Source of the DNA: Paenibacillus ginsengihumi DSM 21568
Lineage (GTDB): Bacteria; Bacillota; Bacilli; Paenibacillales; NBRC-103111
Direction: 5' to 3'
Length of the DNA stretch: 64,000 nt
Assembly (NCBI RefSeq): GCF_000380965.1
Contig: NZ_KB905573.1
Location: 1 to 64,000 of the forward strand
Shown: in pieces, positions 41,986 through 47,259 of the stretch
How positions within the stretch are numbered: the first letter of the stretch is position 1
Layout of the letters: every line of letters begins with the position of its first letter
Notes under the pieces: model-generated
Told to the model about the DNA's origin: nothing
Databases searched by the model: none
Seen by the model: the letters and a program-made list of their open reading frames with translations, nothing else
Position numbers and translations under genes: made by a program

Positions 41986-42255
41986 CTATTGGCTTCGGTT
42001 TGCCGCCATCATCCGAGCGGTTGTGCGCAAACGCGAAAAACGCCCCCTGCTAAGACTAGAGAACAAGGGCCGGTTTATGCTAACATAGTATAGTCGGACG
42101 GTGTCGTATATATACATCAGGGTAGCGGCTCCTACGCCGGCCAGGAGTTCGCCTGCCTTGGGCGGGCTGCCGCGGGCGACGGGCATCAGGATCAATGCGG
42201 CAGCCGCAAGCCGGATCAATGGGCGAATCCATACGTTTGTGCACAATGCGGTCAA
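41986..42255 (-). CDS. Possible small membrane protein
   Basis: Open frame of up to 89 codons with two hydrophobic stretches (IRPLIRLAAAALILMPVA and AGVGAATLMYIYDTVRLYYV) and GC-rich third positions. There is no good ribosome site and only TTG starts, so it may begin further inside or be non-coding. It lies upstream of, and divergent from, the TPR gene. The rest of 41915-42313 shows nothing else. Confidence 0.35.
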   Translation of the reverse strand: MTALCTNVWIRPLIRLAAAALILMPVARGSPPKAGELLAGVGAATLMYIYDTVRLYYVSINRPLFSSLSRGRFSRLRTTARMMAANRSQ

Positions 42256-42313
42256 CCGGCGTTGGCCGTTTTATTTTGCTTGCTTACATATTTTGAATTG
42301 GCAGGAGATTGGA

Positions 42314-43528
42314 ATGGAAATGACATCAAGCGATCAATACCCGGAGCAGGAACGGCTCGAACGCATGTATGATACAGTGAGAGCACTGTACCGGGCGAAG
42401 CGATACGAAGACGTGCTGGAGAGCGTCCAGGACATTCTTGCGGAGGATGCGAACGATCTGCTGGCGCTGTTGTACCGCTCGAGGTCTCTGCTCAGTCTCG
42501 GACAGCACGAGGAAGCCGAAGCTTGCGCCCGGCATATGTTGGCCGTCGATCCCGATAACGAGGACGGGCTGTGTCTGATGGGCGATATTCACAGCAGCAG
42601 GAATGAGCTGGATGAGGCTGCTGTTTACTACGAGCAATGTATCGCCAAAGACCCCGAGGACATCGATTACCGCTACGCCTTGGCGCGTGTCGTATTAAGC
42701 GGAATCGATCGGAACCGCATGTACAAGCGGTTTCCGTCCCGTAAGGTTCGGCCCGAAGCGATGGCGCGGCTGCAACGCGGGCTGGACGTGCTGCAGGAGG
42801 CGAACCGGTTGTTTCCGGGCAACTCGGAAGGACACTGGATGCTGGCCCAATGCTACGATTGGCTGTGCAAGCCCGACGAAGCCATGGAGCATCTGCGGTC
42901 GGCCATCGTCCTTAATCCTTCCGATGCTGAAGTTCATGCGAGAATGGCCGATTATTTCATTTATAACGGCGATCTGGCTACTGCCCGGTCCCACTGCGAG
43001 CAGGCTTTGGCGTTGGACCCGCATCATGCGAACAGCCTTTTTTTCATGGATTTGATTAAAAAATTTCAACGCAATCAGAAGCTTTATTACCGCAAACTGG
43101 TCAATTATCAGCAATCGCTGTGCGATATGTACCCGGACGATGCCGCCAATTGGCTGAGGCTGGCGCAAACCAAGCAGAGCTTCGGCAAGGAGCCGCCGGT
43201 CAAGGAGCTGAAGACATATGTGAAGCTGAAGCCGGAAGATTGGGATCAGCAGTTTGCTTACGGAAAAGCGCTGTACGACGATAAAATGTATTGGTCGGCC
43301 CGCAGCCATTTTCGCCAGCTGGAAAAGGAGCTGCCGGGCAATTCGGCGATCGCGGCATGGCAAGACACGTTAGCCAAAATCAGCATGGGGGCGTATATTT
43401 GGTCGGCATCCCGCATGCTTGTCCGCAAGTTCGCGGTGGAACCGCTGAAGCATGCTTTCCATCTGGTGCTGATCGTTCCGCTCGCCATGATCTATCAATT
43501 CATGAATGATTCGAAAAGCCGAAAATAG
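42314..43528 (+). CDS. TPR-repeat protein with C-terminal hydrophobic segment
   Basis: 404 residues with several tetratricopeptide-like repeats (ALLYRSRSLLSLGQHEEAEACARHM-type, GHWMLAQCYDWLCKPDEAMEHL, ADYFIYNGDLATARSHCEQALAL). The C-terminus ends in HLVLIVPLAMIYQF, a probable membrane anchor. CAGGAG lies 7 bases before ATG 42314. It is 35 bases upstream of the four-module protein, and the AAA ATPase follows, so the three form an apparent operon. TPR proteins mediate protein contacts; no specific function is known. Confidence 0.8.
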   Translation: MEMTSSDQYPEQERLERMYDTVRALYRAKRYEDVLESVQDILAEDANDLLALLYRSRSLLSLGQHEEAEACARHMLAVDPDNEDGLCLMGDIHSSRNELDEAAVYYEQCIAKDPEDIDYRYALARVVLSGIDRNRMYKRFPSRKVRPEAMARLQRGLDVLQEANRLFPGNSEGHWMLAQCYDWLCKPDEAMEHLRSAIVLNPSDAEVHARMADYFIYNGDLATARSHCEQALALDPHHANSLFFMDLIKKFQRNQKLYYRKLVNYQQSLCDMYPDDAANWLRLAQTKQSFGKEPPVKELKTYVKLKPEDWDQQFAYGKALYDDKMYWSARSHFRQLEKELPGNSAIAAWQDTLAKISMGAYIWSASRMLVRKFAVEPLKHAFHLVLIVPLAMIYQFMNDSKSRK

Positions 43529-43563
43529 AAGAAGCCGCGACAGTGAAAGGAGAGATCGCTTCT

Positions 43564-45531
43564 TTGTATAGTTCTGCGTTTCTGCAAGCGATCGTCGATG
43601 TATGCAAAGGCTACGAAACGAAAAAATGCTACGCTGGAGTCATCCCGAACAAGATCGAAGCCCGAGTCCGGGAAAAATTCAACGTGCCGGCGAATCAGGG
43701 ACTGCTTGCTTTTATTGATTTTACGATATTCAGCTACGCGAAAGACGGCATGGCCATTGCCGAGAACGGCATTTACTGGAGAGAGTATGGCTCGGTCTCT
43801 TTTGTTCGCTGGTCTACCTTGGCTGACCTTGAGAATATACGTGTGGACCATAACATTCGTCTGGGCGACTCGGAGTTCAGCAAAAACGGCTGTCCGCTGC
43901 CTGGCGAAAAGCTGCTTGCCCTGCTGACGGAGCTGGCCGATACAGCGCGGGCGTACGCTGCCGAAGGCGGCATATCCGCCGCAGAGCGGGGGGGAAGCGG
44001 GGATGAGACCCTGGAGCAGGCGATCGTTCGCATTTGCGCGTCTTTTGCCCGCAACAAGACGTATGTTCACCCGATCCCTCGCGACATCGAGGCCAAGCTG
44101 CGCAAAAAACACCGCTTGGGTCCGGACGAGACCGTCCTCAGCTTCTTTAATTACGCGCTCTTCGGCAAGAGCGGGGAAGGGGTGCTTTTTACCAACAAAG
44201 GCGTTCGCTGGAACGATGCGAGGAATTATTTGCTGGCCTGGGAATATGTCCGTCCTGCGGCGGATGCGGACGAAGGCGCGTCGCAGACGCTGCTTGCTTT
44301 GCTGCATCAAGAATTCACAAGACATCTCAGTCCGTTAAAATGGATCGAATGGCGCGATTTGCTGGCGCAGGTGGATGCGCTGCCGCAGCTGGCCGCCAGG
44401 CGGCAAAAGGCGGCGGAGCTTGAGAACGCGGCGGTCGATGAGGCGCTGAGGTATCTCCTGCTGCCTTACAATGGCTGCGAATTTTATCGGGCGCCGCTTC
44501 CCGAGGACGTGGAACAACAGGCGCGGGCCCGTTATCGCGTCCCTGATGGTCTGGCCATCTGGGCATACATCGATATGATCACTTACCATCCGGGAAAATA
44601 CGGCGCTTTGCTGACTCAAGCAGGCTTGCACTGGAATAGCCCCGGCGCATCCGTTTTCCTGCCGTGGGATGAATTCCTGCGCGCCGACATTGCGGTAAAG
44701 CATGCATCCCCAAAAAACATGCTGGTTCTCGGTTCCGGCCAGGAACTGTCGCTGGAGGAAAGCACGTTGCCGCCGGAGCAATGGATTGAGCTGCTTGAGC
44801 GGCTTCGCTCGCTGCCGCAGCTCGGCCGCCTGAAGGAACGGGAGCTTGTCGAGCCGCATTTGGACGATTCCCATCCCGAGTTCGACGACATGTTCATTGA
44901 GGCGATCTGCCGCTCGCATTCATTCTTCGATAAATTGAGCAGCTACAGCGCGGTCGGGGACAAGGAAGCCGCCGTCCGCATCAGCTTCAGGCTGGCGCCG
45001 TCGGAACGCATCGTCGCGTTTCGCGACGACAGCCCCGGCCAAGACGGCAAGTACGGGCTGCTGGTGACGGGGCGGTCTGTCTACGTGCGGTTGCCGATGG
45101 ACTCGCGGACCGTTCGCGAATCGGTCTTGCCCTTGTCCGGCCTGGAGGGGGCTGATTTTTTCGTCGAGGGCCAGTCGTTATACCACGGCAACGAGCTGGT
45201 CTACCGCGGCGGCGGGGCCAGGGAGCTGTTAGTCCTGATGAACGACCTAAAGCTGTACGTCGCTTCGCTTGAGGCCGCAGGCAATCCGGTCGTCTACCCG
45301 TACGATGCCGCTTACGCGGAGCCCTGGAATTTGCCGGTGCCGCCAACGGACGATACGCGGTGGATCGTTGCGGAGGGCGGTATGCTGCGGGGCATTCATA
45401 CTGCGGCGGAGCTGGCGTGGGCGGCCGGGAGGGGGCTGCTCGATCCGGAGCGCACCCGTTTCTGGCGCCGCGGATTAGCGGAATGGATATCCGCGGAAAC
45501 GGCCGGCTTCGGCGGCCAGGAGTCTTTATAG
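43564..45531 (+). CDS. Protein of four PH-like modules plus C-terminal GYF-like domain
   Basis: 655 residues, not recognised as a named family. Four related modules of about 110-130 residues occur in tandem, starting near residues 5, 140, 285 and 440. Each has a helical lead with an IExxxR- or VExxxR-like stretch, then a strand pair of the type FSYAKDGMAIAENGIYWRE, FGKSGEGVLFTNKGVRWND, YHPGKYGALLTQAGLHWNS. This pattern resembles bacterial PH-like domains. The last 60 residues (WIVAEGGMLRGIHTAAELAW ... FWRRGLAEW) resemble GYF_2/DUF4339 peptide-binding domains. TTG 43564 is favoured since AAAGGAG lies inside the longer GTG reading. It sits between the TPR and AAA genes. Confidence 0.7.
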   Translation: MYSSAFLQAIVDVCKGYETKKCYAGVIPNKIEARVREKFNVPANQGLLAFIDFTIFSYAKDGMAIAENGIYWREYGSVSFVRWSTLADLENIRVDHNIRLGDSEFSKNGCPLPGEKLLALLTELADTARAYAAEGGISAAERGGSGDETLEQAIVRICASFARNKTYVHPIPRDIEAKLRKKHRLGPDETVLSFFNYALFGKSGEGVLFTNKGVRWNDARNYLLAWEYVRPAADADEGASQTLLALLHQEFTRHLSPLKWIEWRDLLAQVDALPQLAARRQKAAELENAAVDEALRYLLLPYNGCEFYRAPLPEDVEQQARARYRVPDGLAIWAYIDMITYHPGKYGALLTQAGLHWNSPGASVFLPWDEFLRADIAVKHASPKNMLVLGSGQELSLEESTLPPEQWIELLERLRSLPQLGRLKERELVEPHLDDSHPEFDDMFIEAICRSHSFFDKLSSYSAVGDKEAAVRISFRLAPSERIVAFRDDSPGQDGKYGLLVTGRSVYVRLPMDSRTVRESVLPLSGLEGADFFVEGQSLYHGNELVYRGGGARELLVLMNDLKLYVASLEAAGNPVVYPYDAAYAEPWNLPVPPTDDTRWIVAEGGMLRGIHTAAELAWAAGRGLLDPERTRFWRRGLAEWISAETAGFGGQESL

Positions 45532-45577
45532 ACCGGCAAATTCATCTAAACGGTAAGATGGGGAAGGAGAAGGCACG

Positions 45578-47053
45578 ATGGACAAACTCGCCTTTTTACA
45601 ACGTATGAAGAAGCTGCATCCGGACGACCCGGAGGCGGTCTACTGGCTCGCGCAGGAATTGGCGGCCCGCGGCCGCTGGGTGGAGGCGATCGGGCAGTAC
45701 AGCGCCGGGCTGGCCCTCGGCCCGGGCGAGGAGATCCGGGCAGCGCTGCTCGCCGGGCTGACGGAAGCGTCTGCCAAGCTGCAGCAGGGCGCCGCGGAGC
45801 CGGCGGATGCGCCGGCAGAACTTGCCGCACGGGAGGCCGAGGAAGCGGACGAGGCGGAGGAAGCAGACGGCGTAGCCGCGGCGCAGGATGAGGATACTGC
45901 CGCGGACGACGATGCCGAAGCTGAGGACGATGCTGTTGAGGACGACGATGATGCTGATGACGACGATGTCGCGGACGATGATGTCGAGTACGACGACGAT
46001 GATGCTGATGACGATGATGCCGCGGATGACGGTGAAGAGGCCCGCAGGGAACAAGCGGCAGCGCTCGTCCAGCAAGCCGGCGGCGGACCGGAGGTTGGCC
46101 GCACGAGCGATGAGATCGTCTTTGCCCGGTCAACCATCGGGCTGCACGTCGTGGATGGCGGCAAAGCGTCGGGAATGCGGGCTTCGGCGCCGGCCAAGGT
46201 GACGTTCGACGATGTGGCGGGGCTTAAGGAGCTGAAAAAGACGATCCAGCTGCGCATCATCAGCCCGTTCCAAAATCAAGGGCTGTTCTCCAAATTCCGC
46301 AAGAAAGCGGGCGGCGGCGTGCTGATGTACGGCCCGCCGGGCTGCGGCAAGACGTATATCGCCAGGGCGACGGCCGGGGAATGCCGGGCTTCGTTCATTC
46401 CCGTGCATATTACGGATATTTTGAACAAATACATCGGCGAGAGCGAGCGCAACTTGAAGGATATGTTCGATAAAGCGCGCGGGCAGAAGCCGAGCATCAT
46501 GTTCTTCGACGAAGTCGATACGATCGGCTTCAACCGCTCCCACTCTTCCTCCAGCATGCGGGGGGTGATCGATACGTTCCTGACTGAAATGGAGGGCATC
46601 GATACGAGCACCGATCAGGTGCTGATTATCGGGGCGACCAATATGCCGTGGGATGTCGACGATGCGCTCAAGCGTCCGGGACGGTTCGACCGGCTCGTCT
46701 TCGTCGCTCCTCCGGACGAGGACGCAAGGGAGCATTTGTTTCGGCTTAAGCTGTCGGGACGCTATGCCGATTCGATCGATACCCGCTCGCTGGCCCGTCG
46801 TACGGAATTTTTCTCCGGAGCGGACATCGACAACCTGTGCGAGCGGGCGGCCGAGCGCGTGCTCGGCGAAATTCTCGAAACCGGCGTGGAGCGCCCGATT
46901 CGCATGGAGGACTTCGAAGCGCTCCTGCAGGAGGTGCGGCCGTCGACGCTGGAGTGGCTGCGCAAGGCCAAAAATTTCGTGAAATATGCCAATCAATCGG
47001 GCATATACAACGATGTGGAGGATTATTTGAGAAGGTTCGGCCGGCAAATTTAG
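45578..47053 (+). CDS. AAA ATPase with TPR-like N-terminus and poly-Asp linker
   Basis: 491 residues. Residues 15-60 look like a TPR pair. Residues 85-152 are extremely acidic, with long Asp runs. A single classical AAA module follows: VTFDDVAGLKELKK, Walker A GPPGCGKT (252-259), Walker B IMFFDEVD (307-314), sensor GATNMPWD and arginine fingers RPGRFDR (366-372). There is no protease domain and no transmembrane helix, so it is FtsH/CDC48-related but probably an unfoldase or remodelling ATPase. GGAAGGAGAAGG precedes ATG 45578. It is the third gene of the cluster and the presumed motor of the system. Confidence 0.88.
   Translation: MDKLAFLQRMKKLHPDDPEAVYWLAQELAARGRWVEAIGQYSAGLALGPGEEIRAALLAGLTEASAKLQQGAAEPADAPAELAAREAEEADEAEEADGVAAAQDEDTAADDDAEAEDDAVEDDDDADDDDVADDDVEYDDDDADDDDAADDGEEARREQAAALVQQAGGGPEVGRTSDEIVFARSTIGLHVVDGGKASGMRASAPAKVTFDDVAGLKELKKTIQLRIISPFQNQGLFSKFRKKAGGGVLMYGPPGCGKTYIARATAGECRASFIPVHITDILNKYIGESERNLKDMFDKARGQKPSIMFFDEVDTIGFNRSHSSSSMRGVIDTFLTEMEGIDTSTDQVLIIGATNMPWDVDDALKRPGRFDRLVFVAPPDEDAREHLFRLKLSGRYADSIDTRSLARRTEFFSGADIDNLCERAAERVLGEILETGVERPIRMEDFEALLQEVRPSTLEWLRKAKNFVKYANQSGIYNDVEDYLRRFGRQI
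45893..46030 (+). repeat. Asp-codon-rich repeat in the AAA gene
   Basis: A run of GAC and GAT codons broken by Ala, Val and Tyr encodes an acidic linker. The DNA repeats GACGACGATGATGCTGATGA-like units twice (about 45940 and 45994). Confidence 0.8.
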
Positions 47054-47086: not shown

Positions 47087-47113
47087 AAGCCAGCGAGCGG
47101 TCGCTGGCTTTTT
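47087..47113 (+). terminator. Intrinsic terminator after the AAA gene
   Basis: AGCCAGCGA at 47088-47096, loop GCGG and TCGCTGGCT at 47101-47109 form a perfect 9-bp stem followed by TTTT. It ends the three-gene cluster. Confidence 0.9.
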
Positions 47114-47259
47114 GCGCATATTCCCGGGCTCGGTGAAACGAGTCAGCGGCTTTCGCGATCGGCGGACCCGAGCTGCCGGGAATGGATTGCTCGCTTCGCC
47201 AGTCCTTCGATTAACGTTCCGCTGGCCGTGGTCCCGCGTTTTGTCGGGCGAACCTTAAG

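Follow-up and report, generated by a model that had tools for sequence, protein, structure and literature searches.

A PH/GYF partner variant of a bacterial class of AAA ATPases and TPR proteins in Paenibacillus ginsengihumi and other Bacilli

What kind of system is encoded when genes for a TPR protein, a protein of PH-like modules and an AAA ATPase lie side by side? The question is raised by p1, p2 and p3, three genes that run in the same direction within a 64,000-nucleotide stretch of Paenibacillus ginsengihumi DSM 21568 (contig NZ_KB905573.1; the whole stretch is called the window here). p1 (42314..43528, +) encodes a tetratricopeptide repeat (TPR) protein of 404 amino acids (aa). p2 (43564..45531, +) encodes four pleckstrin homology (PH)-like modules and a C-terminal GYF_2-like domain, and p3 (45578..47053, +) a TPR-like N-terminus, an acidic linker, a single classical AAA module and a C-terminal helical motif. 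An earlier annotation from the letters alone (the sequence-only reading) had noticed this same-strand TPR / PH-like / AAA cluster, and re-reading confirmed the observation. We find that p1, p2 and p3 form one conserved unit that recurs in distant Bacilli. The cluster is a PH/GYF partner variant of a barely described bacterial class, and it looks like a partner-swapped form of the wider class in which an AAA ATPase is paired with a TPR/transmembrane (TM) protein.

The p2 profile was searched against overlapping samples of 392 genomes from the order, 394 from family f10 and 398 from the class. In a homologue search that scored the best 7998 word-sharing candidates, p2 alone and the p2 profile returned three proteins; the remaining relatives came from whole-genome searches. 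The p2 family set comprises 13 loci in 12 genomes (G000, G142 with two, G180, G306, G332, G355, G454, G457, G459, G691, G772 and G642). Twelve loci match the profile at E <= 1e-20, and G642 (5.5e-18) was included because it has the GYF-like end. They span three GTDB families and two gene orders. A p1-like gene adjoins p2 in 12/13 loci and a p3-type AAA gene in 10/13 (11/12 and 9/12 at the strict cut of 1e-20). The order is TPR-PH-AAA in five loci and AAA-TPR-PH in four, with a PH-AAA remnant in one; in G332, the search recovered p2 as a C-terminal piece only. The other three loci are p1-p2 pairs alone, with an AAA elsewhere in G142 and G306 and none in G180. Flanking genes of the set vary among lineages. 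Because linkage is this frequent, in two gene orders and between differing flanks, the idea of one system survives the co-occurrence test; the neighbour search did not find the rare co-occurrence on which the sequence-only reading would have given the idea up. The p2 family is rare, with matches in 6/392 genomes of the order sample at E <= 1e-20, and such rarity would suit neighbours brought together by chance with no common function. This explanation is contradicted by the linkage, with adjacency to p3-type genes in 10/13 loci despite two orders and differing flanks, and we regard it as hardly credible.

The linkage belongs to the p2 family as delimited above. Nine more genomes match at E <= 1e-10 (G146, which at 3.8e-19 scores better than G642, and G267, G294, G202, G326, G255, G249, G041 and G612), and their p2-like modules are without p1 or p3-type neighbours, G612 included. 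Eight of the nine have one or two modules, accompanied in some cases by a GYF part, within a different operon type or in pieces. When all 22 loci are counted, a p1-like gene is adjacent in 12/22 and a p3-type AAA in 10/22; the extra weak loci may exceed nine, since the threshold of the family f10 search was 1e-20. Weaker matches were an unrelated-looking 481-aa open reading frame (ORF) in G374 (4.7e-6) and a match of 9.4e-4 in G057.

In the second operon type (L164 6848-9497; L165 7385-11771; L167 6524-11557; L169 6666-11531; L010 7337-10022), proteins with p2-like modules and GYF parts lie beside a ~250-aa 'MSVSIALIPVALTLR' protein. An NrdG-like Fer4_12/radical SAM protein is also present, together with a DUF2997 protein of 82 aa or a CDC48-like AAA of ~555 aa, the latter adjacent in 3 of the 8 loci that we read. 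The module-GYF protein of L010 forms a fusion with HhH repeats. The occurrence of the p2 module in an operon with DUF2997 and radical SAM proteins speaks against the cluster being an anti-phage or stress defence module. That explanation draws on a PADLOC scan of p1-p3, which matched the p2 module to the N-terminal region of the Bunzi protein BnzA (E 3.3e-10) and found p3 to resemble the defence ATPase IetA (E 1.6e-30). As IetA, however, p3 was rejected, with 96.9 bits against an NCBIfam cut-off of 510. Bunzi has TerB, according to a table in PMC10952713, and the Pfam scan found no TerB in p2. A defence role is thus very improbable.

Which parts of p2 are constant? Its start is most likely the TTG at 43564, giving 655 aa, because this is where the relatives P0001 and P0002 begin and because an AGGAG precedes it by 11 nt; the frame can be extended to a GTG at 43543 (ORF 43543-45531). 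In the 655-aa form, a module hidden Markov model (HMM) places the PH-like modules at about residues 6-126, 150-273, 293-417 and 444-562. The PH-like assignment comes from an AlphaFold2 (AF2) model and a fold search, with module 2 modelled in part only; the modules are thereby likened to the PH superfold, a barrel of seven strands whose cap is a C-terminal helix. The C-terminal end resembles GYF_2 (PF14237), with 12.8 bits in the window, 19.3 in L176, 18.9 in L188, 23.2 in L162 and 31.2 in L190 against a cut-off of 25.8; L052 gave no match to this family. The proposal of PH-like modules with a GYF-like end is supported, with the GYF_2 score of the window copy below the cut-off. As a defining feature, the four modules do not hold. 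There are four in the window, G454, G457 and G459, three in G355, two in G306 and in both copies of G142, one in G691 and G772, and none in G642, whose 126-aa protein consists of the last helix and the GYF-like domain only (G180 was not counted and the L163 p2 was left out). Because module number varies from 4 to 0 and the GYF-like end is constant, the C-terminal helix and GYF-like end are likely to be the coupling element of p2.

p1 matches Pfam TPR families with E values down to 3.6e-24. It has one hydrophobic stretch, a C-terminal tail at about residues 375-393, and not several TM helices. Eight relatives were compared with it. The best 19-residue mean hydrophobicity of the tail is 1.48 in the window, a borderline value, and 1.47 in the L007 copy; in the other seven it is 2.0-2.4. 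These results agree with the membrane-anchor-like C-terminus noted from the sequence alone, with the window copy at the borderline.

p3 carries the motor. Its Pfam AAA match scores 129.7 bits, its ATPase residues are invariant across 20 aligned sequences, and its AAA relatives, paralogues included, number 4703 among 7991 scored proteins at E <= 1e-60. The N-terminus gives weak TPR matches in Pfam and forms four helices at residues 3-69 in the predicted model. The acidic linker is not unique to the window copy. The poly-Asp stretch, which the sequence-only reading had noted in p3, was rejected as a conserved family feature on comparison of the p3-type AAAs, in which nine entries had no linker figure. 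The reading frame of the TPR-AAA gene is interrupted in G355 and G332 (L052 8797-10127; L053 9004-10538), and these copies are either decaying genes or assembly errors.

By structure comparison of the predicted model, the AAA module of p3 is of the Vps4 type, with archaeal Vps4 among the top structural neighbours and spastin near, not tied. This raises the possibility that p3 acts as Vps4 does on membrane filaments like those of the endosomal sorting complex required for transport (ESCRT), here ESCRT-III-like filaments of the PspA/Vipp1 family, with p1 and p2 as recruiters. The genome has five PspA/IM30 matches over the Pfam cut-off (L207-L211; contigs C15, C38 twice, C34 and C74), and a passage of PMC11237479 connects Vps4-like AAAs with an ESCRT-like/PspA theme. 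However, the PspA/IM30 matches are on C15, C38, C34, C74 and C7 and none is on the window's contig, C26 (Snf7 itself was not searched for). PspA also occurs in 9/14 control genomes, which were not searched for the three-gene set. Neither MIT nor Vps4_C was found in p3, MIT being absent among 20 Pfam families at E <= 1 and Vps4_C among the 20 listed, and the CdvC profile gave 173.8 bits, under its cut-off of 650. We consider this ESCRT-like role distinctly unlikely.

A different output would follow if p3 unfolded clients for a protease encoded elsewhere. Proteasome-activating and FtsH profiles do score 134-192 bits on p3, far under their cut-offs, and as candidates FtsH (180 bits vs 600) and proteasome ATPase (134 bits vs 504.75) were rejected, as were PAN and EccA on profile cut-offs. 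A Pfam scan found no protease or peptidase domain in p1-p3, which bears out the claim of a motor without a protease. Moreover, the C-terminus of p3, GRQI, is not the proteasome-docking motif as generally known, and the recurrent partners are TPR, PH/GYF or TM proteins. A protease feeder is therefore quite improbable.

With what do other motors of this type work? We read 25 p3-type loci, made up of 13 of the 17 genomes found at E <= 1e-100, three more, and nine from a further search; the p3-type neighbourhoods of four same-genus genomes (G001, G004, G009 and G024) were left out. The PH set is present in 10 loci, a TM set in 14, neither in one (G306) and both in none, so that the two partner sets exclude each other in the loci read. 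The genome G691 has one locus of each kind. The TM set consists of two proteins encoded directly upstream of the AAA, one small and multi-TM and the other TPR-TM, and is found in Lysinibacillus sphaericus and Paenibacillus tyrfis; of this set, only the small protein was called in Neobacillus drentensis. For L047 and L055, the TM set was judged by ORF lengths and N-termini. In three examples of the TM set (L060 8641-11242, L059 8656-11401 and L204 5986-8499), the multi-TM protein has ~140-165 aa and is accompanied by TPR-TM and TPR-AAA proteins. The small proteins of L046 and L060 match none of the Pfam families scanned. That of L202 is a 153-aa hydrophobic ORF like that of L201, with no BLAST match at 1e-3. 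In a profile comparison, p1 and the TPR-TM protein matched with a probability of 99.6, a score that generic TPRs alone would yield.

The distribution of the partner label on the AAA tree takes 2 changes to explain, compared with a mean of 6.9 when labels are shuffled, and 0/500 shuffles were as low; the number came down to 1 change in just 2% of bootstrap trees. A first tree favoured a single origin of the PH set (95/96), a fuller one did not, and this claim was dropped. Eight same-genus genomes have a p3-type AAA, and the four read (G003, G005, G007 and G020) carry the TM set. The other same-genus genomes of the order sample gave no p2 match. In the genome that contains the window there is no further p3-type AAA, and the one TPR-TM match is marginal. 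The set in the window may have been gained horizontally, or retained after loss in relatives.

The motor has relatives well outside these loci. A paralogue of the AAA that lacks N-terminal TPRs, about 320 aa long and 40-46% identical, is the only class found in 70/87 genomes with an AAA match. The gene after it encodes a TPR protein whose C-terminus bears a hydrophobic segment in 13/13 distinct places where the AAA ORF was found, one of which belonged to the training set of the TPR HMM (L039/L058, one place, has no AAA ORF, and L056/L057 repeat L032/L033). That HMM was trained on nine p1-type and five TPR-TM proteins. L060, L129 and L059 are therefore not independent of it, L059 being close to a copy of a sequence used in training. 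Across many phyla, the best 80 loci were surveyed, of which 77 gave an AAA ORF and three gave none. In 39/77, a TPR gene whose product has a hydrophobic segment lies on the same strand within 400 bp, and this is so in 33/62 when at least 1.5 kb is available on both sides; such a neighbour was found for 0/131 control ORFs. A C-terminal motif around 'T..W.....N....N..G.Y' is present in 51/77 loci of this survey. Five partner proteins were scanned and all are TPR proteins; N-terminal TPRs precede the AAA in 4/5 AAAs scanned, the fifth, L111, showing none. AAA and TPR/TM pairs across phyla are seen in L063-L136, for example L069 9485-12083, L098 9476-12117 and L080 9641-11880.

Is this class already described? 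A passage of PMC11237479 (2024) reports a Vps4-like AAA with a TPR-6TM gene, termed "membrane proximal", and by analogy this seems to be the same pair as the class found here. The earlier statement that no described system of this make-up is known goes too far, since the AAA belongs to a widespread class, apparently the one in that passage, of which the cluster is a variant with different partners. We found nothing on the PH/GYF variant in the openly licensed literature, and a passage of PMC6017811 likewise had no bearing on it. Though AAA and TPR/TM pairs occur in many phyla, the literature found on the apparently same pair amounts to that one passage.

We suggest, with somewhat better than even confidence, that the cluster encodes a membrane-tethered, protein-pulling AAA machine in which p1 serves as the receptor and p2 as the adaptor. 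p3 would form a ring of the Vps4/Cdc48 type and draw polypeptides through the pore, an inference made because ATPase and pore residues are conserved. p1 would be a TPR receptor that its C-tail keeps at the cytoplasmic membrane, where it would dock either the ring or the substrate of the ring. In p2 the GYF-like end would provide the constant coupling, and the variable string of PH-like modules could set the reach or valency of membrane or protein binding. Because no protease is present, the output would be extraction or disassembly of membrane-associated proteins or assemblies rather than degradation. Gene linkage, domain make-up, the varying module number and the mutual exclusion of the two partner sets in the loci read are direct observations; complex formation, membrane docking and the direction of force are inferred. 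The sequence-only reading had proposed an adaptor, a multivalent platform and an unfoldase motor. One conserved system with a protease-less motor stands, and the four-module string is not constant. A bolder proposal, which we find possible though unlikely, is a bacterial counterpart of ESCRT. In it, a Vps4-like ring recruited by a tail-anchored TPR receptor and a length-adjustable PH-superfold string would remodel membranes or membrane-bound polymers. It would have arisen when a pan-bacterial AAA/TPR pair exchanged its multi-TM partners for PH/GYF proteins. The PH/GYF variant amounts to a natural partner-swap experiment, with one motor family, two partner sets that did not occur side by side, and an adaptor of 4 to 0 modules. 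It thus becomes possible to test directly by what, and to what, a bacterial Vps4/Cdc48-like ring is recruited.

At its downstream end the cluster is closed by an intrinsic terminator-like stem-loop (47088..47115, +), a strong hairpin followed by T's (RNA fold z -4.28) that a simple terminator scan did not list. A weaker terminator-like stem with a T run, which that scan did list, lies directly upstream of p1 (42248-42269, z -1.92); this stem could be the end of the preceding transcript or an attenuator. The G+C content is ordinary (0.588 for the three genes vs 0.59 for the window).

How does the cluster compare with known systems? The pair in the passage of PMC11237479 is likened by description. 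It pairs a classical AAA with a neighbouring TPR protein that has membrane segments, an arrangement found at many loci here, and AAA and TPR genes are also clustered in the window, where p1 and p3 flank p2. In contrast, the TPR protein of the window has a single hydrophobic stretch, weak and C-terminal, and the cluster has a PH/GYF protein in addition. BnzA of Bunzi has an N-terminal part that aligns with a p2 module, but p2 is without a TerB domain and has other partners. Vps4/CdvC shares the AAA fold, a single AAA module, a helical N-terminal domain and the proposed membrane-side remodelling. It differs in that the N-terminus of p3 is TPR-like rather than MIT, Vps4_C is missing, and no PspA gene is linked. 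Msp1/ATAD1 are protease-less membrane extractors with a single AAA module and membrane-protein substrates. They are compared with p3 here at the level of the AAA module, and in the window the anchor would sit in a separate TPR protein. Finally, the TM set of Lysinibacillus sphaericus (L060) and Paenibacillus tyrfis (L059) has partners with TM helices and no PH/GYF protein, while it shares with the window a related TPR-AAA motor, a TPR partner and a tight gene cluster.
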